From assembly GCA_026874595.1 (NCBI GenBank), contig CM049314.1:68940300-69004299 (forward strand): 64,000 bases of DNA, given 5' to 3'. Below the pieces are notes generated by a model, which ran no database searches, was not told where the DNA came from, and saw only the letters and a program-made list of their open reading frames with translations. The position numbers and the translations under genes are program-made. Origin of the DNA: Sipunculus nudus. Taxonomy: Eukaryota > Annelida > Sipuncula > Golfingiida > Sipunculidae. The first letter of the stretch is position 1. Each line of letters opens with the position of its first letter. Positions 2,560 to 63,194 of the stretch are shown piece after piece.

Positions 2560-3230
2560 ACTTTGTGAAAATGACTGCAGGTTTCCGAGGAGTTTGCCAA
2601 AGACCTCCCTGAATATAACATTAAAAGAGTATAGGGCTCATTTATAGAATTTTTGCCCTGTCTGACTGCTCAAAATTATGCTTCTGACCAGTAACTTGCA
2701 GAATATAGGTCACCATGGCCTCATTTTAAATTTCAATGGGGATTTGCCCATGACCTAGGCATTATACCTACAACTTGTGCCCATCTAACGTTAAAGGTGC
2801 TAAAACCATGTTTTTGGCCTGTCAAGTGAAGGTTTCCCGTGGGATTTGCCAAGATCTCCCCGGATGTTGTGTTGGAAGTTTTAGGGTTTAAGGATACAAT
2901 TTGTGCCCCATCTCACTGTATTTGACATGTATTATAAGAATTAAGTTACTTAATTTCAGGTTTCAAAGAAGACTTGCCAACGATTCCCTATAGACTTTAC
3001 TCTAGAAGGTTCCCAGAAAAATAGATACAATGTGCACCTTGCCTGTCTGTGTGCTCAAATTTATATTTTCTTGGGTCATAGCGCATAGAATATAGCCTGT
3101 GCACCATGAACTAAATTCTGGTTTCCAAAGAGATTTGTCTATAACCTCCATAGATGTGGCTTAAGAAGATTCTAGGCCTATAGGTCGCAGAATTTAGGTC
3201 ACATAGACTTAATTCAGGTTTGTACTCGAT
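2560..3230 (+). repeat. Degenerate tandem array, same family as 28.8-30.3 kb
   Basis: About five diverged units recur here, each with a variant of a 'ggtttccaaggagatttgcc' core (2581, 2827, 2960, 3121), an 'atataggtcaccatg' block and a 'caatttgtgcccc.tct.actg' block. The same core and block order is clearer at 28.94-30.24 kb in the same orientation. Units here are more decayed and unevenly spaced (about 120-190 bp). I found neither the 5' palindrome nor a 3' hairpin, so this looks like a fragment. Confidence 0.7.
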
Positions 3231-3500
3231 TTGTGTGCCGCACATAAACTGTCACAACAAGATGGGCACTCGCTCATTCTAATTGAACGCACATCTTTTA
3301 AGCATATTTTCTGGTGCGTATACTAGAAAGTTCTAAATTATTTCTGCCTCTGCATAGGTGTTAACACGACCAGCTCATGAACACAAAAATTTATATATTT
3401 ATAAATTTTTTATTATAGCATTATAACTGACATCATTAGGATATCATTAAACTTATTAGCACATCCGCTGAAGTACACACTTACATAAATTCCATATATA
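3231..3500. other. No gene seen
   Basis: Short stretch between two repeat blocks. It contains an AT-only palindrome (3385-3410, AAAAATTTATA with its complement) that could be a 5' hairpin of the following element, but in such AT-rich sequence it could be chance. Confidence 0.3.
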
Positions 3501-4390
3501 ACCTTTGACCCCATGCGAAAATGGTTGTAGGTTGGGCCACAAAATTTGAATTTGCTGTTGAGCTATGTTAGATCTATACTCGTGTAGAATTTCAGGCCGA
3601 TACATCAAACCAGTCCCGAGATATTAGCATGGATGTCTGCAGCGTTAACGTGAATGTAGGAGGCGCCACCTGCCACAAAATCGAAAAGGTATCCAAAATG
3701 TATATATATGCCAAATTTTACGCAGATAAGTCAAATTACTGCGACGATATGAGTGATTTTATCGCACAGCAGACAAACAGAAGGGGGCTGTGCAAAAATG
3801 GTTCCAGCTGACGCCACCAGTTTTGCGTATGATAAATAGCTATGGGAGATCTATAAACATACAAAGGTTCAGGAGGATAGGTGCAACAAGTCCTGAGATA
3901 TAAGCATGGATGTCTGCAGCGTGAACCTGAATGTATGTGGCGCCACCTGTCATAAAATCAAGAAACCTATCTAGGATGTATACACATGACATATTCCAGG
4001 TAGGTAAGTCCAACTACTGCAGAGACACAAGTGACTTTAACCCACGGCGAACGAACAGATGAACGCTGTGCAAAATTGGTTGCAGGTGTTTTATTGTATG
4101 ACACAAAGCCATCCAAGAGCTACACTCGTGGAAAATTCCAGCCCGATTGGTAGATCGAGTTTGGAGATATGTGGGTTAATGTTTGAAAATAGACGCACAT
4201 ATGGATGCAGTGCAGAAAGGAAAGGTCAGGGGTTAGATACCAGCTCACATGTGACCCGATAATGGGGTCAAGATTCGGACAAATCGGTCTAGAGGTCTCA
4301 GAGGAGTTCTCCGTACACAAACGCGGCGGCGGCGAAACCCGGTCAAAACATAGTATCCGCACAATTTTATTTTGGCGGATACAATTATAA
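3500..4390 (+). mobile_element. Hairpin-tailed tandem-repeat element (about 273-bp units)
   Basis: Three units each carry a 'gagatat.agcatggatgtctg'-like core at about 3618, 3895 and 4164, spaced 277 and 269 bp. Each also has a 'gcaaaa.tggttgcagg' block and a 'tcgtggaa.attcc.gcccgat' block. The element ends with TCTCAGAGGAGTTC, (CGG)n, a 'cccggtcaaaacatagtatc' box and a hairpin followed by acaatta. This tail is shared with the elements ending at 25.93 kb and, on the minus strand, at 62.2 kb. It has no coding capacity. I infer a non-autonomous mobile element; its class is unproven. Confidence 0.65.
4353..4382 (+). other. Terminal hairpin of the 3.5-4.4 kb element
   Basis: The left arm GTATCCGC (4353-4360) pairs perfectly with the right arm GCGGATAC (4375-4382) across a 14-nt AT-rich loop, and acaatta follows. 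The equivalent hairpin at 25901-25927 has GTATCCCC paired with GGGGATAC: both sides changed together and pairing was kept. Confidence 0.75.
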
Positions 4391-10237: not shown

Positions 10238-11989
10238 ATATCTTCAAGCATGCATAGACCACAACAATTCATATTGGTTTTTCTTTCATTTTAACAAAAT
10301 CAAAACTTTATATATTAAGTGATAAATATTCAGGTGAATTTTCCTTTGATAAGCGAAAGCTTGTTTAAATCATTTGACTTTCATCAGCTGTGCCAATGTA
10401 GAGTTTTGTTTTTACCTCAATAACTATTCTTAACGGCAAGAAAAATGTTCCATAATGATAAATAAATAAAATGCCAATCCCATAAAATACTTTTAAAAAT
10501 TTTAATAATATATTTATTTTTACACAATATATCTAATATTCATATCATGACTTGTTTGCACACTTAGAAGTGCCTATATAAAGTTTGATTGTTACGTTTA
10601 TAATAAGTGTTAACGGCAATTATAGTAAAAGAATTAAAATCACCAGTCACATAAAATATAACTAAATGTTTATATAGGTGGTTGTTGCAGATTGCATTCT
10701 ATTTTTCATATAATCTTAAAGTTTATCATCCACACCAAAAGGTGTATTTATATTGACTAATTAAATAACTGACTTGCAAGACACTGCCTCCCTAATAAGC
10801 GTTGTGTAACCAAATTCTTCAGCTATGGCATCAAGAACGGCTGAGTTGTCCTCTTTGGAAGCTGAACATTAAATTAAGGCAAAGAAAGGTTGGAGTTCAT
10901 AACTGAATTATACCCACTGACTGATATATAATATGACACAAACAAAAAGAATTATATAACAGTAGAATATAACCTGTATCCCTGAAAGAACACATGTTCA
11001 ATTAAATACATGTTTCATTTAGCTGAATAAATAGAGAAAGCAGATAAATAATAAATTACTTCGGGCCGGAAAACATTTTGACTGTTGTGTTCAAGTTGAT
11101 ATATATATATGAGACCACATTTAAATTAAGAGACATTCTTAACCCCAAGACGATTTGACATACAAAACTTCAATGGAACATTTAGTTGCTTCTGTTATCT
11201 GCCTTCCATCCGTGTATTGTTTTAAACATAAATTAAGTCAGGTTTTTTTTCGACACCATTTACAGTCGGACGATATCTACTATGCGGACTGCTTTCTATG
11301 CATGCTTTCTATTATGAAATTTTTAGATACAAATAAACATAATTGCCTTATCTTAATATAGCTGGGTGTTTACGTATATCAAAATTTTGAATGTTGTCCA
11401 AACTGCCTTCCTCATTCTTGTTCTGAATTAAATCACACTTTACATATTTTCGATAACTTATACCCAGCGGCTCGCTTGTTGTGGCAGTACTGTCCACTCA
11501 TATCCGAAAACTTCATCAGAGTGGGGGACGCTAGTGCTCGCCGGTAGATGGCATTTTGGCTCGTTGAGCGGGCTGTAGAGTTGGGGCAGGTCGAGTTTTT
11601 TTTATTTAGCGCAACTAAACTTTTCTTCTCGGAGAGATACTGGACAGCCTACTGTCAGAGCGATGCGGAGATCAGAGATCATTGAGATATCATCATATCG
11701 TAACCATATTGTGTTTGCCCTCCGTTGCCGAGATGTGGGAATCACCCCGCAAAGTCCTCACATCCGCTCAGAGAGCCAAGCAGATTCTAAAAAAAACATG
11801 AAAAGACTTGTTCCGACCAAAAAAAAATTACAAACAAAAGTCTGAAAGATTTAGAGGTCGAGTAAACTTGAGAAGACGGAAAAGTGGATCTGTGGTACGG
11901 ATCTGTTATGGCCACCAATTATTGTGGAATAAGCCCTTCGTAATGTTTTTCAATGCCGCATGTTTGGTACCCTAATATAACTTTACCAT
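10237..11989. other. No gene seen
   Basis: AT-rich sequence. Two pieces near 10.37-10.69 kb ('tgccaatgtagagttttgttttta' type versus 'gtgcctatataaagtttgattgtta') look like a faint, very diverged duplication. There is no coding evidence. Confidence 0.35.
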
Positions 11990-12830
11990 TATCACCTCTG
12001 TGACATTGAAAATTGGACAAGAAACCTATATTCAAACAAAATCTAGCCCTTCATGAGGTCTACATATGCAGTGAGTTTGGTGACCATGCCTCAAATTCTC
12101 TGCAAGTTATTGCAATAATATCACTTAAGCATTATCGCCTCTGTGACCTCGACAAATGCGTCAAAGTCATTGATAAAACATCTTGATCTAGCCCTTTATG
12201 TGGTTTATATACACAGCCGATTCGGTGACTCTGCCTCAAGATATTTTAAAGTTATTGCGCCAACAATATTTTAGCATTATTCCCAGTGTGACATTGAAAA
12301 CCTGTGCCCAGGTCATCCAGATTTAAACTTGACCTAGCCATTTATGAGGTTTATATACTCAGTCAATTCGGTAAATCTGCCTCAAAATATTTTTTCAAGT
12401 TATTGTGCTAACAAATTTAAGTATTATCCCTTGTGTGACCTTGAACAATGTGCCAAGGTCATCCATATTCAAAATATACATAGCCCTTCATGAGGTATAC
12501 GAGTTTTGCAAGTTTGGTGACAATGCCTCAAATTCTTTTCTTAACATCATTTTAGCAGTATAACCTCTGAGACCTTGATAAATGCATTAGGTTCATCCAT
12601 TTTACATAGTGACGTAGCCTTTTATGAGGTCTATTCAATACTGGCAGCCTGGTGACCGTGCTAAATCTTCAAGTTATTGTGTTAACTTCATATCTGTGAC
12701 GGACGGACGGACTGACGGAAATGCGGACAGACACTCCCCATTTTCCATGTTCCCCGCCGACGGCGGCAGTGAAACGCGCGAGAACACGCACGATAAAGAG
12801 AACAGCACGACCAGATCCAGAGATTAAACA
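11990..12830 (+). mobile_element. Tandem-array element (about 143-bp units) with GACGGACGG tail
   Basis: Five units share 'attat..cctctgtgacattgaaaa', a 'gtcatccatatt' block, 'agcccttcatgaggt', a 'gtgac..tgcctcaaa.t' block and 'caagttattg'. The 'gtgac' cores at 12000, 12143, 12288, 12435 and 12569 give spacings of 143, 145, 147 and 134 bp. The array ends in 'ctgtgacggacggacgg', then 'ccgccgacggcgg' (a GC palindrome) near 12755-12770. It has no coding capacity. The design (array plus GACGGACGG tail) matches the elements at 28.8-30.35 kb and 62.2 kb. Confidence 0.7.
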
Positions 12831-24400: not shown

Positions 24401-24516
24401 GACCCTTCAGGGTTATACATGTCACCTTTTTCTATGAATGTATTTTAAAGTCGGTATTACGTAAAATAACTAGACATTTCTTGGCACCGCAGGTGCCAGA
24501 GTATCCCCAGACATAG

Positions 24517-24535
24517 TAGCCCCCCCCCCCCCCCT
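24517..24535. repeat. Poly(C) tract near the element's 5' end
   Basis: A run of C interrupting the conserved start of the element; likely slippage. Confidence 0.85.
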
Positions 24536-24667
24536 ACAAGAACAGACCCCCATTTTTAGCAGCATATACTGACACTTGGCATATTTATTGTTTCTTCAAT
24601 CTAACAATCCACAATCTTGTTGAAGATGTTGGTCCTGTGACCTTGATCTTTTTAAAGATGTGTCCTG

Positions 24668-24686
24668 TGACCTTGACCTTTGACCT
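24668..24686 (+). promoter_or_regulatory. Nuclear-receptor-like half-site run (DR1 plus extra half-site)
   Basis: TGACCTTGACCTTTGACCT. On the other strand this reads three AGGTCA half-sites, two spaced by one base (DR1, the RXR/HNF4 type) and one abutting. It recurs exactly at 24955-24973 and with one mismatch at 25246-25264. It is a motif match only; no binding evidence exists. Confidence 0.4.
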
Positions 24687-25900
24687 CATAACCCCAAAAT
24701 CAATTTGGGTCTTGCTTTTCCAATGGGACATATGCAAGTCAAGTTTGAAATCTATACATCAATAAAGCAGGAATTATCATCCAGAAACTTATTTTTGGAC
24801 AGATGGCTCCTGTGACCTTCGCCTTTGACCTTGTGACCTCAAAATTGATAGTGTTCTTCCTCTCTTGGCAGGAGAACTATAAATGCGAGGTGAAAAATCT
24901 GAGATGAAATGTTTGGCTGAAAATGCATCCACATCTTTTTAAAGATGTGCCCTGTGACCTTGACCTTTGACCTCATGACCCCAAAAAATCAATTTTGGTC
25001 TTACTTTTCCAATGGGACATATACAAGTCAAGTTTGAAATCAATACATCAATAAAAGCAGGAATTATCATCTAGAAACTAATTTTTGGACTGTAGCTCCT
25101 TTGGCCTTGACCTTTGACCTTGTGACCCCAAAATTTATATGGATCATCCACTATTGGCAAGTAAGCTATATATTCAAGATGGAAGAACTAGGATGAAAGT
25201 TTGGCTTAAAATGCATCCACAGTATCTTTTAAAATGCCAGTCCAGTGACTTTGACCTTTGACCTCATGACCCTAGAACCTATAGGGTTCTTACTTTAGTG
25301 GTGGGCCATACATAAGTCATGTTTGAAATCCATATGGCTATCAACACTGGAGATATCATAAGAGGTGTGTGATTTTCACCATATATGGCAATATGCAAGG
25401 TCAAGGCCACTATCATAGGAAAGGTCATGACCCCAATTTAAATAAACATCATCCCATAACCCATACCTATGTATATGCATAATATAAAAGAAATCTGTCC
25501 ATTAGTTTTTGACTTTTAATCTTCACTATACTGTAAGGTGGAAATTTTGGGGATATTAAACGGCACGAAAACAAGTAAAGAATAATAGGTGACGCCACCA
25601 ATTTCTGGAACATTACAACCCTATCCATGATCTTCCATCAACTTGATTTTGGGATAAATCCATGCAAGATTTCTTGAGATATTAAAGAATTTGTGTGATT
25701 TTCCCCAAAATTGGACCTATTCAAGGTCAAGGACACTCTCCTAGTAAAGGTCATGACCTCATTTTAAATAGGCGTCGTCCTCTCACCCATATCTATACAT
25801 ATATCAAGTTTGGTAAAGTTCTGTGAAATATTTTTTGGGTTATCGCGCCAACAAGATTTATATGCGGCGGCGGCGGCGGCGGGACCGGTATGAAAACATA

Positions 25901-25927
25901 GTATCCCCAGACTTTGTCTGGGGATAC
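25901..25927 (+). other. Perfect 12-bp terminal hairpin
   Basis: GTATCCCCAGAC (25901-25912), loop ttt, GTCTGGGGATAC (25916-25927), then aatta. The stem has no mismatch. It is homologous to 4353-4382 and, decayed, to 62211-62240 on the minus strand. Confidence 0.9.
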
Positions 25928-25932
25928 AATTA

Positions 25933-26668
25933 ATGTCAAGCAGACAGGCCGCAAGCGCCTCCCCCCCCCCCGACACACACACCCAACCATTCAAATATCC
26001 ATAATTCTGAGTGTCAATGAAAAGCGTATTTTTAATTTGATTAAATTATTTATGCATCAAAATGCATTTACAATATTCACACTTTTTAAAATCTGCCAGC
26101 CATTTTAGTCTTGTATAAAGATTGCGCTTGAGAACTCGAATGGTGACAGTTGTGAACTATACACGCAGCATGATTTTGTATTTCCGCACTTTCCGTGATA
26201 TTTGTTTCATTTCCTGTGGACATAATTACAATCTGTGGTTTCTTTCTTTAGACCTTGTTGGCCAAAATCTGTGGTTTCCTTGTGTCTTGCGGCCCTCCTT
26301 AACTGTAACGTCTGTTACCTACTAAATGTAACCTGCTGTTAATATCTCTTAATTGGCTCCACTGGTACACCATCTGTGGTTTCTTCCAAAGTCACCACTG
26401 AATATAAGCTGTCGTTTTTGTTGGTGAAGCAGCGCATAGCGTGCGGGTTACTTCCGTCGTGGGCGTACTTGGCCAAACTAATAAAAATGTATTTCACGTG
26501 ATTTCACTTTTTCATATTAGAACTATTCCATATACTAATACGATATAATCATTAAACTATCCTTCTACACAACGGAAAGGCAGTTTTTTATGAGTAAGGT
26601 CTGTCGTTTTTTATCTATGTTACGGAAAGACTCAGAAAGGGACATAGGGCCATGATGAAGTAAATCCA
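25933..26668. other. No gene seen
   Basis: Contains a C-run and (AC)n at 25962-25984. No coding signal. Confidence 0.4.
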
Positions 26669-26940
26669 ATTTTATATCCTGTTGTTAACCAGGCCCGGTG
26701 ACTACTGCACCTGCGGTCCCGGATGGTTGTGTAATTGTCTCCCTCGCTTACCCATACTACCGCGGGATCCTCGTTTGTGAGTGAATATGGCCTGGAAACA
26801 CGTCTTCCCCATTGAACCTGCAGACCTAGCACTCACACGGTAGAGACCGACCGTGAGATTCACCTCGGGTGAGATTCAAACTCACGATCTCCCGGCTTTC
26901 AGGATTGTGCTCTTCCACTAGACCAAAGAAGTCGGTAACC
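26669..26940 (-). mobile_element. tRNA-derived SINE (family 2, copy a)
   Basis: The minus-strand tRNA-like head lies at 26935-26865, with a box A-like 'ctagtggaagagcac' and box B GAGTTTGAATCTCA. A GC-rich body runs to 'taacaacaggatataaaa'. A second copy at 58993-59278 aligns along the full length in the same orientation. Confidence 0.8.
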
Positions 26941-28805
26941 AATGTAGAGTTTATTACGGTTTGACATGATCCGGATCTGAATGAAACTTGGAGATACGTT
27001 TTAACGTCTGAATAACTGCTTATTAGTTAATATGTAAAGTCTCTTATAAGGATGTCCTTATTCATATATAGTTTATAATTTTTAAATTAAATTTTAATTC
27101 TACTGTGGCCGCCAGTATGATTACTGTCTTCTATAGTATTTCAATATTTAGATGTTTCATTCTTTCAATTTTTCCTTCTCAGATTCGATTTAGGCATGCA
27201 GTATCCCCCCCCCAACACCTAATGTCTGCTAGGAACAAGCGGGAAACAATCACATTTGATAATTCACGCCATTTACACAAAAAATCGGGGTTTCACACCC
27301 TTGTGTAAAAACTGTAAAAAAATATGTTTGAGTTGACATGAACAAGTCCAGCTAAACAACAGTATCTAGTTATGATCAACTGGGTATCTTAATCCTACAT
27401 TTTTATTGTCTATGGATATAAGGGGTTTGCAATTGGATCAAGATTCTTTGTCAGCTGCTACTGGCTTTCGCCCTGCAACCACAGAATGAGTAGCAGTCCC
27501 GTTGATTACATTACACCACGATGATGCTGATCCGAAGCAAATCAAAGATCGTTGTAGATCTCGATGATCGTGATGATTTTTAAATTTGTTGACGCAGTTT
27601 GCTTTTTCATACGCTTAAATATGTACAATACCTGGTGATAGGATCAATGAGAAGATCTGCCACGATTGGATACCCGATCAATCCCTTATATTAATTGCTA
27701 ACGCTCTCTTACGTTCAAAACGTTCTATTACCTTTTGTTGCCTTCTGTTAAGATAAACGAGGGCAATTAACACGACTGGGACAAGATCGGTATAAATAGG
27801 AGGCGGATCTTGCATTTTATAAGTGTGTCCATGAAGTAACCCCAAAGAGGTAACATGGATATTGTCCTTCACAATATAACGATTAGTCCGCCAAGCGTTC
27901 TGCACACGCTGTAACACGATCTATTAAGATGGCCATTACGTATTAATTGCTGCGCTCTGGAACGATTTGTTTTTTTTTTTAGTTTAAAATCATAGCATAA
28001 TCACAAAGGAGTTTCATGATCATGAAGATGCAACGCGATCACCACGATTTTTATCTTCTATCTGCCACGCTCAATAAGGTGAGATGCGATCTTAACACGA
28101 TTTAAAAAAAAAATTACCAATTGGTGGTAATCGTGGTCTAGTGTAAACTCAGCATTCCTCTAATAACGGTGGTAATAATCTCTATGATATGTATCATCTT
28201 TATTGCATCATCCTAAGCCGTCAAATGTTATATATTTATGAACAGGCTACAGGATCACTTAAGCACCCTAACTGTCAACAACAGCAAGGGAGAACACAGG
28301 CAGTATTCTGGAGGGTGTGAAGGAGGTGCCTACATAATTTTGATCCAATAGAGATTTCTCTCGCCAGGCTGTCATGACTGGCCTTTTTTGTAAACCCACT
28401 ATTATTCCTTATTAAACACACCTTACCAGTGCTTAATGAATATAACAGCAAATAACAATACCGCCCCACATTAGTAAGGAACCAATTGAAGGCAAGAGAG
28501 CTTTCAAATACTACATCACAGGGCCCTGAGAGGAAATTCTAAGATGGACAATTGGTATCACGTGTGTATCCAAATTTATGCAGTAAATTTACATCTCACT
28601 CAGATATAACAATAGATGTTATTCTTTAACCAAATTACAAGATATGCTTTGATCAGGGCTAGTATAATTTAAATAACTTTATTTAAATAGCGATTTGAAT
28701 CATGATCACTGTAAAAAATCATAAGAATCATCAAAATTGTTTTTTTTTAAGTTTATTAACCGGATGTTATAGATATTACTACATTATGAATTACATAACT
28801 AAACA
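26941..28805. other. No gene seen
   Basis: Unassigned sequence. ATGATCATG-type words recur near 27.5-28.0 kb but form no array. Confidence 0.4.
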
Positions 28806-30350
28806 AGTGGCCCATGGGCCATGACGCTCAGCTAATTTTGACTGGGTGCTCATTTTTTTTTATTAATGTTATATACTGTCTGAGAGAATAGCCTATGACT
28901 AAAGATACAGTGTTGAAAAAATGGACAGAAAATAAAATTTCAGGATTCATAGGAGACCTGCTCAGGACCCCCCTGGATGTCACAACAGAGGGTTCAAAGG
29001 AAAATAGATACAGTTTGTACCCTTGTCTGTCTGGGCGCTCACAATCATGTTTCTGGTCCATAGCTAGCAAAATATAGGTCACCATGATCAAATGTCGGGT
29101 TTCCAAGGAGAATTGCCAAGGATTTCCTTGAATGTCATGTTAGAAGAGTCTGGGGCTAATGGATGCAATTTGTGTCTTGTCTGTCTGGGTGCGCAAACCA
29201 TTTTTCAGCCCATAGGTCACAAAATATAGGTCACCATAACCTAATTTCCGGTTTCCAAGGACACTTAACTAGGACCTCCCTGAATTTTATGTTGTAAGAT
29301 TCTTGGCCTAATGGATACAATTTATGCCCTGTCTGACTGTCTGGGTGCTTATATGACATATTTTCTGATAGGTTGCAAAATGTAGGTCATGGTGACCTAA
29401 TTTCAGTTTTCCAAGACACAAGCCAAGGACGTCTCAAAATGTTACATTAGAAGATTTTAGACCTAACAGACACAATGTGTACCCTCACTCTCTGGGTGCT
29501 TATATAACTTCTTTTCCTATAGGTCGTAAAATATAGGTCATGGTGACCGAATTTCAGTTTTCCACAGACTTTGCCAAGAGCGTCTCAGAATGTTACATTA
29601 GAAGATTCTAGGCCTAACAAAGACAATATGTGTGCCCTGACTGACTTTCTGGGTGTTCAAAATCCTGTTTCCGGTCTGAAGGTTACAAAATATAGGTCAA
29701 CATGACCTAATTTCAGGTTTCCAAAGAGATATCGCTAGGACTTAAATGTCACGTTGGAGGATTCTAGGCCTTATCTATTCAATTTGTGCCCCATCTGACT
29801 GTCTGATGCTAAAAAACATTGTTTTCGGCCAAAAGGTAATAAAATAAAGGTCACCATGACATAATTTCAGGCTCCAAGGAGATTTGCCTCAAAACTCCCA
29901 AGATATTGTGTAAGAAGATTCTAGGCCTCACAGATACGATTTGTCCCCATCTGACATTCAGGGTGCTCATATGACATCTTTTCCCTATAGGTCGTAGAAT
30001 ATAGTTCACAGTGATCTAGTTTCAGGTTTCCAAGGACATTTGCCTAGGATCTCCCAAAATATCAGGTTAGAGGTTTCTAGGCCTAATGGATACAATTTGT
30101 GCCCCGTCCGACTGTCTGGGTGCTCAAAATCATGTTTCTGGCCCGTATGTCACAAAATATAGGTCACCATTTTAGGTTTCCAAGGAGATTTGCCCAGGAT
30201 CTCCCCGGATGTACAATTAGAAGTCTCTAGGTCTAACGGTAACAATTTTTGCCCTGTTAACGGACGGGCGGCCGGACGACTTGACAACCGGACGGACGCC
30301 GGACAAAGGGCGATCGCTAAAGCTCATGCAGATGACTCAAATGACTGAGC
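28806..30350 (+). mobile_element. Terminal-palindrome element with about 154-bp tandem array
   Basis: It opens with the perfect palindrome TGGCCCATGGGCCA (28808-28821) followed by tgacgctcagct; the same start is found at 34564. Nine units follow with cores 'ggtttccaaggagatttgcc' and 'aatataggtcaccatgacct'. Core starts at 29098, 29250, 29406, 29556, 29716, 29870, 30025 and 30175 give spacings of 150-160 bp (mean about 154). It closes with GACGGACGG-type repeats, 'ggacaaagggcgatcgctaa' and GCTCA/TGAGC (30322-30350). The closing block reappears, inverted, at 62.34 kb. It has no coding capacity. Confidence 0.8.
28808..28821. other. 5' terminal palindrome
   Basis: TGGCCCATGGGCCA is a perfect 14-bp palindrome. 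The homologous end at 34564-34577 is TGACCCATGGGTCA, where a paired G-to-A and C-to-T change preserves the symmetry. Confidence 0.85.
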
Positions 30351-33300
30351 AAAAAAAACACCAACTGCAGATTCTGTGACAAAAAATCAAAATAACCTGA
30401 AATCATTTGTTGTAAGTTTGTATTTCCACTAACCATGATACATACTCCAAAATTAACACTATCATTCAAATTTTGAAACCAGTATCCTATGCAGGTAAAT
30501 TTAAACTTTCATCTGTTTTAGTAAGAAGGTTGACGGATTTGATACCCTATTTGTAATCTATTAATGTTGCATTATTATTGAATGTACCGATAAAATGTTA
30601 TGGAGATATGCTGAATTATTTATAAAGATAAAAATGGATAAAGACCCAGCATTGGTGAACAAACCAGCAACGTTGCATGGTATTATAATAAGGCATTTAT
30701 ATTCTTTTCTCGTAAACTAAAACTAAGTAAAGAAGAATGAGAGCTAATTCAAACACTGTATTTTACAGGATTTTATTATTTCAATTTAATATTTTTTGGA
30801 TATGTGCCATAAAATGTAAGTATGCAGGCATATTAAAGGGTTGTAGTACATGGTAGATCTGAAATGACACGCTGAAATCCGGTTTGCCAATGGCCACGTA
30901 TTAATCACAAAAACTTTCTAGTTAGTTTCTTTTCCATTACATATTACTTTCCGAAATACTTTGAAATACTGCCTGATAATCTTCAGTACGAAAACTGATA
31001 AATTAGTTGATAAAGATAGAGGAAATGATTAAATTTTTTTAGGTGATTTAAATGAAAAAAAAAGTGGATTTTTATTTAACAAGGTAAAAAAAAAATCATG
31101 ATTTTTCTATATAAATCGATATTTTACGAGCCCTGGTTATGATTCTACTAATTAATGTAGATGTTTAAATAAACTTATAACAATGTACAGCAATTATTTG
31201 CCAATTTTAAACGTGTCTGTATACACTTTAAACAATAGTTTTTAAAGTGTCTTTATGCAATTTAAAAAATCGTTTTTTTTAGTTTTTTTAAGTGTAATGT
31301 AAAAAAAAGGTTTTACCTACTGCAGTGTCAACTCTATAGAAGTAAACATCTCCCCAAAATAAATCTGTGGAATAACTTCTTTATGGAAATCCCTATGCAA
31401 ACCCCACCAGAAATGGAGACTTTTTAATCAGTATCTTCATACATAGAAACGAAAAGGTTCAAAATATTATATTCCCCATCATATTTCCCCATGAAGGTGA
31501 TATTCGTAATTCATAGTCCATATAAACTAGGACCTGAAACACAGATGAAACAAAAACAATTTTAAATATTTGTCTTCCATCTAATTAATTGAAAAATAAT
31601 TGAACAATTTCTTCCTTTTTACTGAGGAAACTTACAGCTTACCTTCACTTAACGAGCATCCATACCACCCTGCCTCACCTGAACTCAATCACGCCCAAAC
31701 ACTCTGAATACTGCCATCGTATACTGTTAGTCGAAACATTTGGGAGAGAGTCAACTTAAGCTTTAAGTAGCTTGCATTCAATCCCATTGATGCCTGTATT
31801 ATGTGATATATATGTGCGTATTAAGTTTTAATAAAATATCTCAAACAAAATAGGATTTTGACTGTAATTAAACCCACCCCAGTCTTGGATCGTCCGCAGC
31901 GGGTTTTTCCTATAAAATTCAAATTTCTGAGTATTAATATGGGTAATTATAATAAATGAACCCCCTAAGGACATGCTTGGCATCGTTCCCGCACGCAAAG
32001 ACCAAAGTACGAGGGGAAGTCCGCGACATGGCCACCGAGCATTTGCATGACAACCATTTATTGCCATCGTTAATTATAATATAGGAGTTTGTAATACTTA
32101 ATGCTTTAGAAAAGGCGAAGAAAAAATTATGTTCATCATGATAAAAGTGTAATGAGCCAGCGAACGCACTCTATATGGGTACTCGCCCTAAAAGGATTCT
32201 TATGCAAATTATCAGGAGAATCAATGCAAATTATACCTCAACATCTGTTGGGTTAGATTAATGTTTTTGCATATCGTTTTGACAAAAACCTGTTTAAAAA
32301 TTGTCTGCCAATATTAAAACACCCACGAGTATTAACGAATCGAGATGTTTAATAATTGCAAGAACAAGATGGTAAAAAGCGCAATAATCATCATTCTCTG
32401 TGCTGTTCAGGACACGTGGCTGTATTTACTTTCCCCATATAACATCTATAAAACACCCGAGGTTTGGGCCTCTTTTAAATAATTTTCAAAATAAATTCTG
32501 ATATTAAACCTTTTTTTACCTGAGAATTTGTTGTTTCTTCAGTCAAACTAGACCAAGAAAAAGGGGTTTGTGTTTCTCATTTTTTAACCATCCTGGCCCG
32601 AATGCAGTGAAGCCCAAAATACCCCACCAAGCAGTCCCAAACAAACATTTGGACAACATCTCTTTGATTGGCCACAGATTTAAAAAAATGACCAATACTG
32701 TCAATTTTATTGGAGATAATGCTTAACATACTTAAAAATCAAACAATGGGGTGTTTTTAATGCTCCACCACATGATGGCTAGAGCCAACCAGAGAAAGCC
32801 AGACCATTCACTACTCTCCTTCAGGTTCAGGGCTTGGTGACCCCAGGTCATGTAAATAAATAGGACCACGTGACCTTCAGCTCTACAAATTAACCACCGC
32901 CCCATCTGGTATACTCTCTTGACAGACTATACAAAGTGTGGACTTTGAACTAGCTTTTCATAGACAGGTCTCCCATTTGTAGAAAGCGATGACGCGCCAC
33001 GAAGGTTTCAGGGTCTTCTTTGCACGGGAATACATTCATGGCGACCACGTGTCACGTATTTGCCCCACTCTGTGGATCCAATGCATCAAATGCCGAGTAT
33101 TTTGAACGTAGTTATCCCAATGTAGAATTTGTTTATTATATAAAATATAACATAATATAATAATATAAAATAGACAATATAAAACAAGACAGGGCTTTTA
33201 AGTTTAAAATCACCAAATGGCCGAAAGGTCTGTCAGAATATTGAAGGGTTTTTATTACCAAGTCAAATATAAATTGCGGGTATATTGGTTTTACGTGATA

Positions 33301-33660
33301 ATCAGGGAGCTAGAACATTCGCGGGGGCCACTGTATAATTTCACTTTATAGGAATTAACGTTTAGTCACTTAGCACGTCAAAATGACTTAACTAAGAGTC
33401 GCCCAGACGTGTGCTGCTGGGCCCACGTCTGGACCATTCACCCATGCACCAGAGAATAACAAACAACCTACTTTACTATATAGGGGTAGCTTGTTATTGG
33501 CTCAGTCAAATAGGATTTAAGAGAGATGGTAGGTAGCCCTGATATCTCAACTTCTGGGTTTTTATTTTGTTTCAGAAAAGTAGCGGAATCCAATTAGCTA
33601 CAAAAATCTCAGCTTCTGAAAAACCACAGACGAAGGTATATATGCAAACTGGAAAATATT
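30351..33660. other. No gene seen; AT-rich
   Basis: Mostly AT-rich unassigned sequence, including poly(A/T) runs near 31.0-31.3 kb. No recognised ORF, RNA gene or repeat family. Confidence 0.45.
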
Positions 33661-33669
33661 ATTTGTGAA

Positions 33670-34560
33670 GTGATCGCTGTAAATTGTGAAATGAAAATTA
33701 TATTATTAGGTGACCTATATGCAAGAATTGGATATCTACCTTATGTTCTGACTGGTAATAGTGATGATCCTTTCCCATGTTTGGAGTTTAATGATCTTTC
33801 TTTTATAAGAGAGAGAAAAAGTAAAGATCAAATTGTTAATAAGTTTGGTAAATCCCTGCAAGAACTATGTTAAGCTTTGAATATAAGCATACTCAATGGT
33901 AGATTTGATTCTGACCAACAAGGGGAATTAACATTTTGCTCAAAGACTGGAACGATCATCATTGACTATATTATTGTAAGAACAGATATGTTTACATCTT
34001 CTACTGAGATTGAGATCCTAAATATGGATCTGTCTGATCATTTGCCTATATCATCTTATCTGTGTACTAGGAGGGAAAGGGGGCTGGCTACAGGGGATTA
34101 AGCCATTATAGTTAACCCTTGGATACAATATAGAGAACGGAAAATAAATCAGTTTGCATGGCAAGATAATGATAATGTGTCACATTTTGTGGATCAATTT
34201 TATGTAAATGTCCATCAAAACCCTACCATTGCAGCTGACATAATTACGTCACTTTTGCAACATCATGCAAAATGTACAAACAAGGAAAAAAAGTGGGGCA
34301 GTGAAATCAGGAACACAGCCAAAATGGTGGGATCATGAGTGAAAAATGTCTAAACATTTAAAGTACAAATCATTAAACAAATACTGACTTTCAAACAAGC
34401 AAGCAGACTTAAATATATATATAGAGAAAAGGAAAAGGAGTTCAAAGAACTGTGTGCTTAAATGAAAGAAATACATGAGAGGAAAATATATAAGAACTTG
34501 TTGAGATGTCAATCAACTGAGGAATTGTGGCAAGCAATGAAACGCATCAGAGGGTATAAC
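33670..34560 (+). pseudogene. LINE endonuclease fragment (APE type), 5'-truncated and broken
   Basis: The frame has LLGDLYARIG, matching the GDFNAR motif of AP-endonuclease-like LINE endonucleases but with the key Asn replaced by Tyr. DYIIVR and LSDHLPIS (the SDH catalytic motif) follow. Stops at 33871-33873 and 34099-34101 interrupt it. A decayed linker continues to about 34560 with lysine-rich helical text ending 'ELWQAMKRIRGY'. The N-terminal third of the endonuclease is missing. It stops abruptly where the 34.56-kb mosaic element begins, and RT motifs resume at about 40.0 kb on the same strand, so I infer one interrupted LINE. Confidence 0.75.
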
Positions 34561-34563
34561 AAG

Positions 34564-34577
34564 TGACCCATGGGTCA
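34564..34577. other. 5' terminal palindrome of the mosaic element
   Basis: TGACCCATGGGTCA, a perfect palindrome homologous to 28808-28821 with a compensatory pair change. Confidence 0.85.
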
Positions 34578-35216
34578 TGACGCTCAGCTGACAAGCATGA
34601 CCTGTATTTAAAGCCTGATGGTATACCATATGGTATCTGACCATACTTGGAAGATGGAAGGTTTGGGATGAAAAGTCTGACTTGAAATGCATCCACAACT
34701 TTTTTCAGGAAGCTGGTCCTGTGACATTGACCTTTGACACTAAGACCTAAACATCAAAAGGTTTGTTCCTCTATTGACTTGTAAGGTTCGGGATGATTAT
34801 TTTGGCTATAAGAATTAATTCTGGGAGGTGCAAACACACCCCGTAACTCAGAGAATATAGGTCACAGTGACCTAATTTCAGATATGCAAGGAGATCTTTT
34901 TAGAACCTCTAAGACTGCATAGGGTTCATGTATCTAGCCCTTACAGTTACAATTTGATGATGTACCAGTTTCGATTCCTGCAAAACCATGGCCTTTAGAA
35001 TGCTATAAGTAAAATACAAAAACCAGCAAGCAGGTAAATTTGAGGAGAACTGACGAACAGACAGACATACTGACAAAGTGACACAAAGCTGAGACCAGAT
35101 GACTTACTCAGCTTATGGAAAAGACCCAGAGGAAGAAAATAAGCTATAGTTTCTGTAATTGAGGTTTATAATTTTCGAGATATGGCCCAAAAATGATATG
35201 TTGGGAAAGTCGAGTG

Positions 35217-35235
35217 CAGCGCCCCCTAGTGGCCA
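35217..35235 (-). promoter_or_regulatory. CTCF-like motif 1
   Basis: The plus strand reads CAGCGCCCCCTAGTGGCCA. Its complement, TGGCCACTAGGGGGCGCTG, fits the known metazoan CTCF core (CCASYAGRKGGCRS). Motif match only. Confidence 0.5.
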
Positions 35236-36009
35236 TATCTGGAAAATGAAAAAACTGTTTCGAGATATTAGTGTAAGAAATAAGATATAATAGTTTCAAA
35301 ATGATTACTGCATACTTGTAAAATCTAGGCTATCACTAAGCGATATCTCGAAATATCTCGTTTGACGAGATATTGTACAAGATATTGCGAGACTTGCAAA
35401 AAATTCAAACAATACTACTTGTATGCTACCTGATGCAAAAACTAGATCTCTGTAGCTTTAAAACTGATAAAATTAGAAAAATAAGACCCCTTATTTTTGA
35501 ATATAATGACTTTTTTCCCCAAATTGCGTAACAATGGCTACCGCAAATTTGAGGCTGCTATACACTAGAAGAAAGGCCTTGGAATGACGATTAAAATGAG
35601 CTACAGTTGAAGTAGATACGACTAACAGTGACAAAGATATGAAGGAAAAACCGTTTTGCAAACTTTTGATGACCTTGACCGTTGACTGATAATGAAAAAA
35701 TTCAATAGGGTTCGGGCACTTGTGGTTGTACATCAACTGGGTAAGTTTGAAAGCGATCGCTGCAAAACTGTGCATTTGCGGTTGGAGACAGACAGACAGA
35801 CAGACAGACAAGATGACCAGAGGTCACGCGCTTGCCGGAAATGGAAATGATACAGACAGATAGACAGAGAGTGCATGTAGAAACAGTCATATGAATGAGC
35901 AACATTGTGGGGGCAGCAGAAACGGATAATATGTTTATTTATGCATGCTGACCTTTAACAGCTGCATATCTTTCTAGTGTAAAAGGGACCAAGTTCAAAT
36001 TTTTTTTCA

Positions 36010-38060
36010 TGAAATCCCGTTAATCTCGTTTGACAAGAAGCAGTGAGACGTTTTCAGGTTTGTCATGTCAAGCTGGCCAAATGATATGAAATGCCGAAAA
36101 CTAGACCTGTCTAGCTATAAAAGCCGCTGAGTTATAAGCATTTGCATGAAATCTCGTGTTTTCTCGTTTGACGGGAAATGGTGCGAGCTTTGGCGAGATT
36201 TCCAGTTTTGTCATGTCAGGTTTGTCAAATATTACAAAATGCCGGAAACTAGACCTGTCTAGCTGCAAAAGTCGCCGTGTTATCAGCATTTACGTGAAAT
36301 CATGTTTTTTTCTCGCTTGACGAGATATAGAACGAGATTTGGCAAGACGAGCAGTTTTATTATGTCAAGACGGCCAAACGTTACGAAATGGCGAAAACTA
36401 GATCCGTCTAGCTGTAAAAGTCGCCGAGTTATAAGCATTTCCGTGTACTCTCGTGTTTTCTCGTTTGACGAGATATGGTGCAGGATTTGGCCAGTCTTGT
36501 AGATTTGTCATATCAAACTCTCTAAATGTTATGAAATGGCGAAAACTACATCTGTCTAGCTGTAAAAGTCGCCGAGTTATTAGCATTTCTGTGAAATCTC
36601 CTTTTTTTATCGTTTGACGAGATATGGTGCGAGATTTGGCCAGTCTTGCAGGTTTCTTATGTCAAGCCGTCCAAATGTTAATGAATGCCAAAAACTAGAC
36701 CTGTCTAGCCGTGAAAGTCGCCGACTTATATGCATTTCTGTGAAATCTCGTTTTTCCACATTTGACCAGATGTAGTGCGAGATTTCGCCAAGTATCGCAG
36801 TTTTACTATGTCAAGTTGGCCAAATGTTACCAAATGCCAAAAACTAGACCTGAGTAGCTGTAAAACTCGCCTAGTTATAAGCATTTCCATGATATCTCGT
36901 TTTTTTCTCGCTTGACGAGATATGGTGCGAGATTTGGCCTGATTTCTTTTCTGGCGTGTCAAGCTGGTCATATGTTATGAAATGCCGGAAACTAGACCTG
37001 TGTAGCTGTAAAAGTCGCCGAGTTATAAGCATTTCTGTGAAATCTCGTTTTTTCTCGTTTGACAATAAACCGAGCGAAATTTGACGAGACTTGCAATTGA
37101 ATGACTTAGAACCAAGGGGAAGCAGCCTCATCCAAAAAACTAGACCCTTGAAACATAAATATTAACCGAGATAGAAGCCAAAAACTGCATATTTTCAGAT
37201 CGTCAAGTTTAACCCACAAATTTGGTAACCATGGTAACGGCAGCACAAAGCTACATGTGCGGAGGAATAAGCCAATGTTCCTAGTTTAAGATACAACGAT
37301 AAAAATTGTGCCATGTTTAAAATTATTTTAGATATTGCAGAAAAATGATATGTTACAGTGTTTCAGGTACCACGCCCCCTGGTGGCTATTTCCAAAAAAT
37401 GAAAAACTGATTTCGAGATATTTATAAATAACACAAAATATATCAATTTCAAAGCCATTGTTAAAAAAATGCAACCTGTAGGTCATATTTAATGAAATCT
37501 CGAAGACTCTCGTTTGACGAGAAATGGTGCGAGATTTGGCGAGACTTTCATTTTTATCATGTCAAGCTGCCTATAAGGTACATAATGACCAAAACCAGAC
37601 GTCTGTAGCTTAAAAATTGACAAAGTTACAAAAAATGGTCGTGTTATTTCCAATTTCCATGATTTTTGCCCAAAAAATGTAACCATGGTAACGGCACTTG
37701 CATATATGTCGTGTCAAGCTGGTCTAGTGGAACTAAATGCCGAAAACCAGACGTGTCTAGCTGTAAAACTGGCCTATTTATAAGCATTTCCGTGAAATCC
37801 CGTGTTTTCTCGTTTGACGAGATACGGTGCGAGATTTGGCCTGTCTTGCAGCTCTGTCGTGTCAAGCTTGTTTGGTGGAACGAAATGCCGAAAACCAGAC
37901 CTGTCTAGCTGTAAAAGTCGCCGAGTTATAAGCATTTCCGCGAAGTCTCGTTTTTTCTCGTTTGACGAGATATGGCGCGAGATTTGGCGTAACTTTCAGT
38001 TCTGTCGTGTAAAGCTGGTCATGTGGAACAAAATGCCGAAAACTAGATCTGCCTAGCTTA
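36010..38060 (+). repeat. Satellite-like array, 148-149-bp units with a TCTCGT..ACGAGA palindrome
   Basis: The 'gccgagttataagcatttcc' core recurs with 'gttat' anchors at 36131, 36279, 36428, 36576, 36725, 36874 and 37022, then 37777 and 37925. Spacing is 148-149 bp with little drift. A non-array module (37.1-37.7 kb) interrupts it. Units also contain 'tctcgtttgacgagatatgg', 'gtgcgagatttggc', 'gtcatgtcaagctggtc' and 'gaaaactagacctgtctagc'. Overlapping ORFs on both strands simply read through the units and are not genes. Confidence 0.88.
37369..37388 (-). promoter_or_regulatory. CTCF-like motif 2
   Basis: The plus strand has ccacgccccctggtggct; its complement carries CCACCAGGGGGCG, a strong core match. 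Same orientation as motif 1. Confidence 0.45.
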
Positions 38061-38456
38061 AAAACTGACAAAGTTACAAAAAAATGGTCGTGTTATTTCC
38101 AATTCCCATGAATTTTGCCCAAAAAATGTAACCATGGTAACGGCAAATTTAAGTAAGCTACATATCAAAAGAAAGGCCAGGTGATGACGGAAAAAATGAG
38201 CTATTGCAGAAGTGGATAAGCCTATTTATGGCGAAGTTATAGTGCAAAAACCGTTAACCACACCTGTCGTGACCTTGACCCTTGACCTTGGAGCAATGTT
38301 GACCAAAAACAATAGGGTTCCAAGGGGTTCGGTTGTCAATCAACCCTGTAAGGGTCATGTCGATTGCTGCAAAATTGTGGCCAGGAGAGCGCAGACAAAC
38401 ACACAAATAAACAAAAAACCAAAAAAACAAATGGACATACGCAACTGACCAACCAA

Positions 38457-38484
38457 CTTGCCGAAATCGAAGATTTCCGGCAAG
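38457..38484 (+). other. Hairpin, internal/terminal module of the mosaic element
   Basis: CTTGCCGAAATC pairs with GATTTCCGGCAAG across gaa, with one bulged C. It is repeated at 39912-39938. Confidence 0.75.
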
Positions 38485-38985
38485 CAACAAACAAACTAGA
38501 TGAGCTGAGGTCACGCGCTTGCCGGAAATGACGTAAAGTTAGTCAGATGAACGAGCAATGCCAAAATGAAAGAAAATAATCTATAGTTTGTGAAGATAGG
38601 ACCAATATTAACAAAGTTCTTAAGAAAGTAAGATTTTTGTATGTTTTGGTCACCGTGACCTTGACCTTTGACTTATTTAAATAATACACATAGGCCTTCC
38701 AGATATAGTCACAAACTATTACTAGTGTAAGTTACAAAGCGATTCTTGCAAAACTGTGGCCAGTATAATGCTATATGTGAGATGCAAGAACCAGGAAGCA
38801 GGCGAAATTAATGACAACTGAAAAACAGACAAACATACTGACAAACTGACCCAAGATTGAGACCAGATGACTTATTCATGTTATGGAAAAACCTCAGAGG
38901 AAGATAATAAGTTATAGTTTATGTAATTGAGGTTTATAGTTTTGGAAATATGGGCGAAAAATGATATGTTGTAAAAGGTTGAGTG

Positions 38986-39004
38986 CACCACCCCCTAGCG
39001 GCCA
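38986..39004 (-). promoter_or_regulatory. CTCF-like motif 3 (degenerate)
   Basis: The plus strand reads CACCACCCCCTAGCGGCCA. Two core positions deviate, so it is a weaker match than the others in the same module context. Confidence 0.3.
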
Positions 39005-39315
39005 TATATGGAAAATGAAAAATCTGTTTCGAGATATTAGTGTAAGACATAAGATGTAATAGTTTTAAAAGGATTCTTTCAAAACTGTGGCCTGTAGAAT
39101 GCTATATGTGAGACGCAAGAACCGGCGAGCAAGCGAATTTGAGGACAACTGAGAACAGACGGACACACTGACAAAGTGACTCAAGATTGAGTCCAAATGA
39201 CTACACCAGGTTTTTGAAAAGACTCAGAGGAAGGAAATAAGCTATAGTTTATGTAATTGAGGCTTACAGTTTTGGAGATATGGCCAAAACATGATATGTT
39301 GGAGAGGTTTGCACC

Positions 39316-39334
39316 CAGCGCCCCCTAGTGGCCG
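39316..39334 (-). promoter_or_regulatory. CTCF-like motif 4
   Basis: The plus strand reads CAGCGCCCCCTAGTGGCCG; the complement matches the CTCF core fully. Same orientation as motifs 1-3. Confidence 0.5.
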
Positions 39335-39989
39335 CATTCAAAAAATGAAAAAATGATTTCGAGATGATAGTGTAGGACTTAAGATATGTCAGTTTCAAAA
39401 AGATTCCTGCAAAACTGTGGCCTCCAGGGCAAGATTACTGAAATCTCGAAATATCTCGTTTGACGAGATATTATACGAGATATTGCGAGACTCTTACTAG
39501 AATCTTGTAGTACTAGGTGAATGCTACCTGAAGCAAAAAACTGGACCTCTGTAGCTTTAAAACTGACAAATTTAGAAAAATATCAGCACTTTTCCCCAAA
39601 AATGCGTTACCATGGTTACCGCAAATTGAGTCAGCTACACACCAGAAGTCAGGCCTTGGAATGTCGATTAAAATGAGCTACGTTGAAGTAGATACGACCA
39701 ATATTAACACAGATATGAACAAAAAACCGTTTTGTATACTTTTGATGACCTTGACCTTGACCTTTCCCCTATATTGACCAAAAACAATAGGCTTCCTGGA
39801 TTTTTATTTTTGACCAGCTGTGTGAGTTTGAAAGCAATTGCTGCAAAAGTGTGGCCTGTAGAGAGTCCACAAACAAACAGACAGACAGACATACGCAACT
39901 GACCAACCAAGTTGCCGAAATCGAAGATTTCCGGCAAGCAACAAACAGACATACGCAACTGACCAACATGCTTCAAGCAATAATACTTC

Positions 39990-40200
39990 TGAACGTGTCA
40001 CAGAATTATTTATACCAAACATGGATGCACATGAAAGCTCTTAAGAATCAGAACATAATAAAAAATAACCTCTTATGAAATAACAAAGGTGATACGGGAA
40101 ATGAAAAATAACAAAGCACCTGGACCAGATGGGCTTTTAGACAGACTTATTTATTACTCTTTTATGTTAACCTATCCTTCGACTTCAGACTAACACGTCC
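39990..40200 (+). pseudogene. LINE reverse transcriptase, N-terminal fragment
   Basis: From 40077 the frame reads VIREMKNNKAPGPDGLL, the conserved start of non-LTR reverse transcriptases (KAPGPDG). The preceding linker (39990-40076) is readable only with stops and a frameshift. The frame ends at a stop after YPSTSD, just before a (TA)n tract, so RT motifs between this point and YADD are deleted. Confidence 0.8.
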
Positions 40201-40227
40201 GTCCATATACCATTAATATATATTAAT

Positions 40228-40229
40228 AT

Positions 40230-40271
<42 letters not shown>
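40228..40271. repeat. (TA)n microsatellite replacing part of the RT domain
   Basis: A pure TA run sits exactly where the LINE reverse transcriptase is missing its central part. Confidence 0.9.
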
Positions 40272-40273
<2 letters not shown>

Positions 40274-40283
40274 TTTCTGTAAA

Positions 40284-40988
40284 ATTATCAAATATGCAGA
40301 CGACACTGTCATTCTAGTCCTGATACACAAGAATGATGAATCGCTCTACAGGAAAACCATTCAATATGTGACTGGTTGGTGTGAGGAACACTACCTTCAG
40401 TTAAATGTAAAGAAGACTAAAGAAGTAGTCTTTGATTTTAGGAGATCAAAATCTGTAATTACCCCAGTTGCTATCAAAAATGAAGATGTTGATATTGTAG
40501 AAAATTATAAATACTTAGGATGTATTATTGACAGAAATCTGAATTGGAAAGAACATGTGTTGAATCAATCCAAGAAAGCAAACAAAAGATTATATTACCT
40601 TTATTATCTAAGAAAGCTTAATATAGACAAAACCATAATTACCATGTTTTATAATTCAGTAATTTCCAGTGTCCTTACTTATTCACTGGAGTGCTGGTTT
40701 ACAAATATATCTGATAAGTTAAAGAAACAGTTGAATAATACCAGGAAGAGAAGTAGTAGAATAACTGGTACTTCTCTTGCCACACACCAGGAAATCTGTG
40801 AAACCAAAACAATGGCCTTCATATCTAAGGTCATGAATGACAAAACACATCCCCTATATTCATAGTTCCGTTTTTTACCTTCAGGTAAACGCCTAGATAC
40901 GATAGAACAACTCGTTTTAAAAAATCTCTCGTACCACACAGTATTAAACTTTTTAACTCACAACCCTCTTAGAAATTTAATGTTTTGA
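40284..40988 (+). pseudogene. LINE reverse transcriptase C-terminal part (CR1/L2/Rex-like)
   Basis: The reading frame carries YADDTVILV (40293 onward; the YADD catalytic motif), WCEEHYLQLNVKKTKE, NYKYLGCIID and SVISSVLTYSLECWF. After a single in-frame TAG (40863-40865) comes the terminal FRFLPSGKR region. Order and spacing match the RT palm/thumb and C-terminal tail of jockey-superfamily LINEs of the CR1/L2/Rex1-Babar type. Apart from the one stop the frame is intact for about 230 codons, so this copy is moderately young. Codon use is AT-rich like its surroundings. Confidence 0.85.
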
Positions 40989-62204: not shown

Positions 62205-62420
62205 CTAATTGTGTCCACTAAAACAGAGTTTTGCAGATACTATGTTTTTGACCGGGTTCCGCCACCGCCGCCGCTTTATTGTTTTCAGGAACTCCTCTGA
62301 GATCATTTGACCGATTTTTAGGTCAGCTGACTACAAGTCTTCTGAGCTATAGTCATGGTCCTTTGTCCGTCGGCCGTCCGTCCGTTAACAGGGCACGTTT
62401 TGAAACCGTTGGACCTACGA
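62205..62420 (-). mobile_element. Hairpin-tailed element end, minus orientation
   Basis: Read on the minus strand: GACGGACGG repeats, 'ggacaaaggaccatgactat', 'tctcagaggagttcc', (CGG)n, 'cccggtcaaaaacatagtat' and a decayed hairpin GTATCTGC/GTGGACAC, then aatta. It combines the closing block of the 28.8-30.35-kb element with the tail of the 3.5- and 24.5-kb elements. Its upstream part may extend to about 63.0 kb, but I see no clear array there. Confidence 0.68.
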
Positions 62421-63130
62421 ATCAATAATTTTGCATACAGTTAGATGTCCCAAAAATCTCCTACCATATCGAAAATTTGGTCACTAAGACTTTGTTCGTT
62501 CGAGGTATTAAGTAAAAATCTCCGTTTTCCATGAAAAACCCATTGTTACACTTCAAGACTGCCTGATATCAAAACCAATGACCTGTCTTTGATCAGATTT
62601 AGTATGCATATTCTTTTAAACTTTTCCTATATACATACTAAATATTAGGTCAGTATTGCGTAATTGGTTGAAGTTATGGGCCTGAACATAATACACCTTG
62701 TAAAAAATCAGGAAATATATTTATTCACTTAACAAATGAATTGCTGACGCTAGAGACTTTTTTTTCAGGGATATAACTTCATTTCATCAAGATTCAATTG
62801 TATACTGAAAATAAGATCTGGATATCACATATTTTATATGTAAATAAAATCAGTACCTTAAATTTTGCCCAAATTTGACCATGACACTTTTTTTTCCTGT
62901 AAATGCTGTTCATTTTATATTAACAGTATGTTCACATAAGCATATTAGCCGTTCAGATCTGAAATCTGAAACTAATTGACCAAAGACTGTAGATTTTATT
63001 CAAGTTTTAAAACACAATGTCAAGTATTGTTTACATAAAGCCATTGCTATCCAATGTACTCCAGCCAGCTCTTAGCCGGGCAGGGTGTTATATCTTCACT
63101 CCTGGCCAACTCTGTCCAGGTGATCTTGGT
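62421..63130. other. Probable upstream part of the minus-strand element; no gene
   Basis: No tandem periodicity recognised and no coding signal. Confidence 0.35.

Positions 63131-63133
<3 letters not shown>

Positions 63134-63190: not shown

Positions 63191-63194
<4 letters not shown>

Follow-up and report, generated by a model that had tools for sequence, protein, structure and literature searches.

Satellite arrays carried by HINEs, which are non-autonomous Helentrons, are known in oysters, yet the Crassostrea gigas study that describes them was unable to connect any of its ten autonomous elements with them (Vojvoda Zeljko 2020; PMC7492417). The plan of a HINE, according to that study and PMC4067079, is a 5' subterminal inverted repeat (subTIR) with an inverted repeat (IR), a GTCC-like microsatellite, a core, a 3' subTIR and a palindrome; the definition of Helentrons used here follows the latter paper (Thomas 2014). 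Links between satellites and Helitrons are also described in PMC5139131, PMC8268682 and PMC11136912. Here we have analysed a 64,000-nucleotide stretch of Sipunculus nudus DNA, referred to as the window (contig C9, 68940300-69004299, of a genome of 1.43 Gb in 153 contigs), which contains repeat blocks labelled A (28.8 kb), B (24.5 kb), C (3.5 kb), E (34.6 kb) and F (62.3 kb). We consider that these blocks very probably represent two kinds of non-autonomous rolling-circle transposons built around tandem-repeat cores, namely HINEs (A, E and F) and Helitron-like elements (B and C). On the one hand, most of what is seen here, satellite cores carried by HINEs and by Helitron-like elements that are partly nested in one another, is of a known kind. 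On the other hand, the presence of Rep-bearing elements with nearly the same ends, of an A-like core in one of them, and of a core beside both kinds of ends is new.

Two kinds of ends among the blocks

Coordinates are collected in Table 1, where C1, C2, C3, C5, C7, C8, C10, C11 and C17 in the table and text are contigs and L numbers denote genome loci fetched for comparison. Four of the blocks (A, B, C and E) are oriented on the minus strand, and what is drawn as a tail is therefore the start of the element. Compared by blastn inside the window, the palindromic end at 28802-28833 recurs at 34558-34589 (94%), and a hairpin tail with (CGG)n is common to 4323-4387, 25870-25932 and 62206-62274 (75-79%). 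Block E matches the 24.5-kb core at 34651-34738 (77%) and the 28.8-kb core at 34852-34956 (72%), and the closing part of block A, 30228-30274, has a minus-strand match at 62371-62417 (83%). An earlier reading of the window from its letters (the sequence-only reading) had pointed to all of these shared modules, and each of them was recovered; the 12.0-kb block, which it had placed in the same network, matches none of the other blocks at an E-value cut-off of 1e-3 and thus has no end in common with them. End sharing between the blocks exceeds chance, because the A-type end has 103 exact genome copies as a 33-mer and the E-type 3' end 6,037 as a 32-mer, compared with 0 for each reversed pattern searched across the same genome. 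The palindromic end and the CGG-hairpin tail are features of different kinds of elements.

On the minus strand, HINE A ends in TTAGCTGAGCGTCATGGCCCATGGGCCACTTGT followed by T, with the edge at 28803. Its core of repeats of about 150 bp occupies about 28938-30257 and adjoins a GGAC-like microsatellite (~30260-30310) and a 5' subTIR/IR hairpin (~30320-30352), which the scan missed in the window copy and which is decayed by eye. Among 20 loci recruited by the A block, the window copy included, 18 have the palindromic end and 18 the hairpin end; in 16 both occur in the right order, separated by 1,525-2,333 bp. Neither end had a match in 1.78 Mb of base-shuffled loci. The ends thus co-occur at a defined distance, as had been expected of real elements. 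Since these 20 loci were picked by core similarity, they are uninformative on the variety of cores. When 36 HINE-type ends (at least 25 of 31 identities) from all loci and the window, with four duplicate loci excluded, were sorted by their interior 300 bp, they fell into 12 groups, several of which are Rep-bearing elements, and 18 of the 36 belong to the A-core group that had been selected for. This agrees with the earlier proposal that ends are kept while interiors vary. The suspected likeness to HINE and pearl elements is also supported for A, E and F, and the order of 5' subTIR and IR, GTCC-like microsatellite, core, 3' subTIR and palindrome was found here.

In the genome, T is the next base after the E-type end in 6,037 of 6,366 exact copies, and these counts, together with the empty site of F, indicate insertion between T and T without duplication. 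The palindrome of the A, E and F type lies 5 nt from the edge. At one of its pairs a compensatory change was observed, 13 of 29 distinct ends having A-U and another 13 G-C; the covariation score was reached by 0 of 500 shuffles, and 87.6% of the palindrome cells pair, compared with 81.8% in shuffles. The number of pairs changed on both sides and the number of further pair types were not above shuffles (222 and 498 of 500 as high, respectively), and an Rfam search gave no match. At one locus (L020), the edge of an A HINE is duplicated together with its flank, and the break falls within the palindrome, between AACAAGTGGCCCATG and AAGAAAGTCC, a pattern that might be expected had the copying process been halted by the hairpin.

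HINE F is inserted in a second Helitron C. It begins with a subTIR/IR and a GTCC-like microsatellite, and when its C flanks are joined, the 3.5-kb copy aligns with them over the junction, as do 18 of 19 other C loci, although 4 of these 18 are units of one tandem array. The empty site shows no target duplication. The 62.2-kb block had been taken for a modular hybrid, an explanation that the aligned empty site led us to reject; the mixture is nesting and not module exchange. Similarly, a HINE with a GTCC-like microsatellite and a different core ends within an A HINE at locus L028. Block E is located within a long interspersed nuclear element (LINE), between parts that by eye encode the endonuclease and the reverse transcriptase (RT). 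The LINE flank has 28 genome matches, and 11 of the 12 that were fetched continue through the E site. The interior of E consists of 149-bp and ~330-bp arrays, and sub-blocks are repeated within it (35800-35843 is like 38487-38530, and 34973-35810 is like 39072-39891), pointing to an element of tandem or composite make-up.

The Helitron-like element B reads on the minus strand, after an outside A, TTGTATCCCC, (CCG)n, a core with a period of 289 bp, the hairpin GGCACCTGCGGTGCC, then 9 nt (AAGAAATGT) and CTAG, followed by T. Its exact 3' ends number 1,511 genome-wide, a count of T-followed ends only. The 5' end of C is like that of B and the hairpin before CTAG is different, C having a 19-nt palindrome, 7 nt and CTAG. 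In the window copy of C, a strict pattern scan gave no match for the CTAG end near 3.4-3.5 kb, where this end is probably truncated or decayed. Both B and C therefore possess the 3' palindrome followed by CTRR of canonical Helitrons. Outside the 5' end stands A (T as drawn) in all 8 B rows and all 11 C rows, and outside the 3' end T in 5 of 6 B rows, L002 reading TTAG, and in 4 of 6 C rows, with L035-L038 counted once among the C rows, indicating insertion between A and T as in canonical Helitrons. In L035-L038 themselves (C5:91241168-91252731), Helitron C repeats at a spacing of 3,553 bp with units more than 99.9% identical where aligned; this is a transposon-bearing unit within a tandem array.

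Rep-bearing Helentrons with HINE-type ends

A search with PF14214 gave 143 domain matches in the genome, and the downstream side was fetched for 18 Rep loci of our choice. Seven of the 18 have a HINE-type end, with 29-31 of 31 identities to the E, A or F end of the window, so that a Rep/helicase partner sharing the ends, which the sequence-only reading had called for, was found for A, E and F over the last 31 bp; none was found for B or C. The copies on C17, C5 and C1 are 97.5-98% alike, and their alignment stops at most 2 bases (shared Ts) from the HINE-type end, as does that of the C3 and C2 copies. The C17 and C5 copies have a common 5' edge, TTTT followed by TAGCTCAGCTGACTGAAAGTCA, with unrelated flanks. 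Accordingly edged, the C17 Helentron measures ~14.9 kb (35625478-35640362), its whole length having been fetched piecewise and read end to end, and the C5 Helentron, fetched at its two sides, about 16.1 kb (42907357-42923484). At the 5' end of the C5 copy, 60 of 62 bases match the HINE A copy L019. Behind the 5' end of the C17 copy there are A-core-like repeats, whose five best matches are 71-76% identical over 121-204 bp (best E-value 9e-25), and the C5 copy is 94-96% like C17 in this stretch. The exact subTIR is 11 bp in the C17 copy (GCTCAGCTGAC) but 8 bp in the two HINEs compared, an A copy and F, where about 11 bp or more would be expected of Helentrons and HINEs.

The open frame of the C17 copy, the sole one of the seven that was scanned, has 2,342 aa with DUF6570, Helitron_like_N and PIF1. 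It also contains SPHIHMLMW and a Walker A motif.

Considering these shared ends, A, E and F would most likely be copied in trans by the Rep/helicase of those Helentrons of the same genome that share their ends. By analogy with the family, the 5' subTIR would be where copying begins, and the 3' subTIR with the palindrome where it terminates; B and C would probably use a canonical Helitron protein. Since mobility would need the end modules only, the interior would be free to change, presumably by array expansion, internal deletion, nesting and, in a mode that we infer, exchange of cores.

An OTU-type class of Helentrons (L049, L051-L054, L057) was rejected as partner, having no network end in 1.5-2.6 kb of 3' sequence, and L056 and L060 have none in the stretches fetched; the stretch fetched for L071 probably stops short of the 3' end and hence says nothing on ends. 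The class of L049 (C11:50379000-50388900) is a second class of Helentrons with OTU, Rep, PIF1 and an endonuclease above the cut-off. The N-terminus of L049 is a series of peptide repeats with an STPR match just below the cut-off, and on the 3' side of frames of this class (L051, L052, L054) tandem repeats of ~325 bp directly follow the coding frame, so that Rep-bearing elements hold a further array of satellite type.

Possible core exchange and alternative explanations

The Helentrons on C17 and C5 carry a Helitron C at matching positions (L061, L063), and a Helitron C on C10 (L075) has the same right flank, indicating that one rolling-circle element travels within another. Two loci fetched for the empty site of this insertion (L076, L077) did not align. 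In the printed sequence, the inserted Helitron C measures about 0.86 kb on C17 as against 1.35 kb on C5; the difference is one of repeat number, and arrays therefore become longer or shorter where they stand.

The B core (24590-25860) is similar to the interiors of HINE-ended blocks in L016 (77% over 306 bp) and L028 (69% over 435 bp) and to block E (77% over 88 bp), and 0 of 200 block shuffles of the B core matched E at 1e-4. We tentatively propose that satellite cores may be mobile modules passing between two mechanistically different rolling-circle superfamilies, and that the A-like core present inside a Rep-bearing Helentron may have arisen there; we regard this as possible rather than probable. 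The B-like core beside HINE ends could also result from nesting, in which HINEs received copies or fragments of Helitron B that have since lost their ends. Nesting is seen here for a HINE in Helitron C, a HINE in a HINE and Helitron C in a Helentron, whereas the intervals between the HINE end and the core, roughly 60 nt in E, 60 nt in L016 and 236 nt in L028, contain no B end by eye, the L016 and L028 loci stopping short of the far ends of their blocks. We treat nesting, too, as a conceivable but uncertain explanation.

Regarding the blocks as a whole, the sequence-only reading had proposed one family, in which B and C would use the same transposase as the other blocks and differ from them only inside. 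The short modules common to the blocks and the B-like core beside HINE ends would fit such a family. However, A, E and F have the subTIR, the palindrome and the T target, whereas B and C have the hairpin and CTAG with A and T outside; because the two sets are unlike at both ends, the single family is unsupported, and considering also that the 62.2-kb mixture is a nested insertion, we judge it very unlikely. It is similarly improbable, to a high degree, that independent satellites inserted by themselves, for example as circles, with the end modules as passive neighbours. Although a C-bearing unit is itself tandemly arrayed, with a period of 3,553 bp, and array length varies between otherwise alike copies, satellites alone would not account for sharply delimited ends that recur on both sides, always in one order and orientation, for the preference for T or for an empty site at the ends. 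The palindromic ends might also recall terminal-inverted-repeat DNA transposons (MITEs), the name formerly given to pearl elements according to PMC7492417. The inverted repeats here, however, are subterminal and only 8-11 bp, the single clean empty site has no duplication, and the ends are borne by Rep-bearing elements, so that we consider MITEs extremely improbable.

Several results weigh against our own assignment to HINEs and Helitron-like elements. The exact subTIR is only 8 bp in the HINE A copy L013 and in F. Of the clean empty sites that had been expected, that of F was found, whereas E has an exact left edge and a right edge at which ~79 bp of the LINE are absent, so that its insertion is not clean and this part of the target has been replaced. 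The 18 Rep loci were hand-picked from the 143 matches, and the other 11 have no such end in the fetched stretch. Over the last 60 bp, identity between the tested HINEs and the seven Rep loci is at most 75%, which falls short of the subfamily rule of 80% over this length (PMC4067079). The Exo_endo_phos match of the C17 frame is under the Pfam cut-off (20.5 vs 24.5 bits), and the listed Rep frames of the other six partners are shorter, 235 to 1,658 aa, so that most of the seven may be broken. In the C7 copy, no 5' end was found in the 4.5 kb fetched upstream (L062). For B and C, neither of two loci that look canonical by eye (L073, L074) showed a B or C end in its fetched stretch of 2.2 kb.

Elsewhere in the window, 16731-18233 on the minus strand is an open reading frame of 500 aa, of condensation/acyltransferase type by eye, and 49387-49854 holds two adjacent arrays with 52- and 48-bp units, unlike the HINE cores by eye.

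Table 1. Positions of blocks, flanks and Rep loci (window numbering, or contig and position; fractions are identities to the HINE-type end)
Feature	Position	Strand	Remarks
A-core-like repeat fragment	about 2578..3221	no strand	no recognised ends; absent from the list of the sequence-only reading
Helitron-like element C	3490..4384	minus	hairpin-plus-CCG 5' end
146-bp tandem array, then (GACG)n and GC-rich palindrome	11973..12790	no strand	12.0-kb block
Helitron-like element B	24470..25929	minus	ends and 289-bp-period core
HINE A (non-autonomous Helentron)	28803..30352	minus	ends scanned in 20 loci
LINE, left flank of E	34300..34557	plus	endonuclease side, by eye of translation
Block E	34558..39978	minus	starts with E-type HINE 3' end (ACCCATGGGT palindrome)
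LINE, right flank of E	39979..40865	plus	same LINE, RT side (KAPGPDG by eye)
Second Helitron C, 5' part	62209..62319	plus	resumes past nested HINE to about 65634 (window numbering, L050)
HINE F	62320..64000 in window	plus	3' palindrome edge at 64849; 2,530 bp in total
Rep locus, E-type end	C17:35630192		30/31
Rep locus, E-type end	C5:42912065		30/31
Rep locus, E-type end	C1:71800017		29/31
Rep locus, E-type end	C8:6662025		31/31
Rep locus, A-type end	C3:38393950		30/31
Rep locus, A-type end	C2:67398052		29/31
Rep locus, F-type end	C7:71189229		30/31

Comparison with known elements

The scattering of satellite DNA becomes easier to explain given that larger relatives in the same genome combine these Helentron ends with the enzyme gene. 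One genome here holds non-coding elements, Rep-bearing elements of nearly the same ends, and core-like repeats in one such element, and two questions are thereby made testable, namely who moves the HINEs and whether satellite cores derive from the element or were captured. If it holds true in full-length copies, a core common to Helitron-like and Helentron-type elements would mean exchange across superfamilies. In a limited literature check, covering titles and the openings of abstracts, we noticed no report of Rep-bearing partners of bivalve HINEs or of a core common to Helitron and Helentron.

The Cg_HINE elements of the oyster, as described in PMC7492417, resemble the present HINEs in module order, in a tandem core of ~140-180-bp units and in a T-rich target without duplication, and their group 2 likewise combines related ends with unrelated cores. 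They differ in that none of the autonomous elements studied there could be tied to them, whereas Rep-bearing elements with nearly the same ends, one holding A-like repeats, occur here; moreover, a given core there has a consistent flank pair, whereas here the B-like core stands beside Helitron-like and HINE ends. According to PMC4067079, DINE-1 and other HINEs are also short non-coding relatives of Rep/helicase/endonuclease elements, with the partner known by shared ends; the partners there are about 95-98% identical, whereas here identity reaches at most 31/31 bp at the ends and at most 75% over 60 bp. In mite HINEs the palindrome lies ~8-35 bp from the end, unlike the 5 nt here. By the same source, canonical Helitrons are matched by B and C in the 3' hairpin 7-9 nt before CTAG, in the T that mostly follows and in the A before the other end, and differ from them in the 5' end, which in B reads TTGTATCC instead of TC and which has an additional 5' hairpin. 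Finally, the mollusc pearl elements CvA, CvE and CvG and the satellite-transposon network, going by their descriptions in PMC5139131 and PMC11136912, are like the present blocks in combining central satellite repeats with conserved ends.

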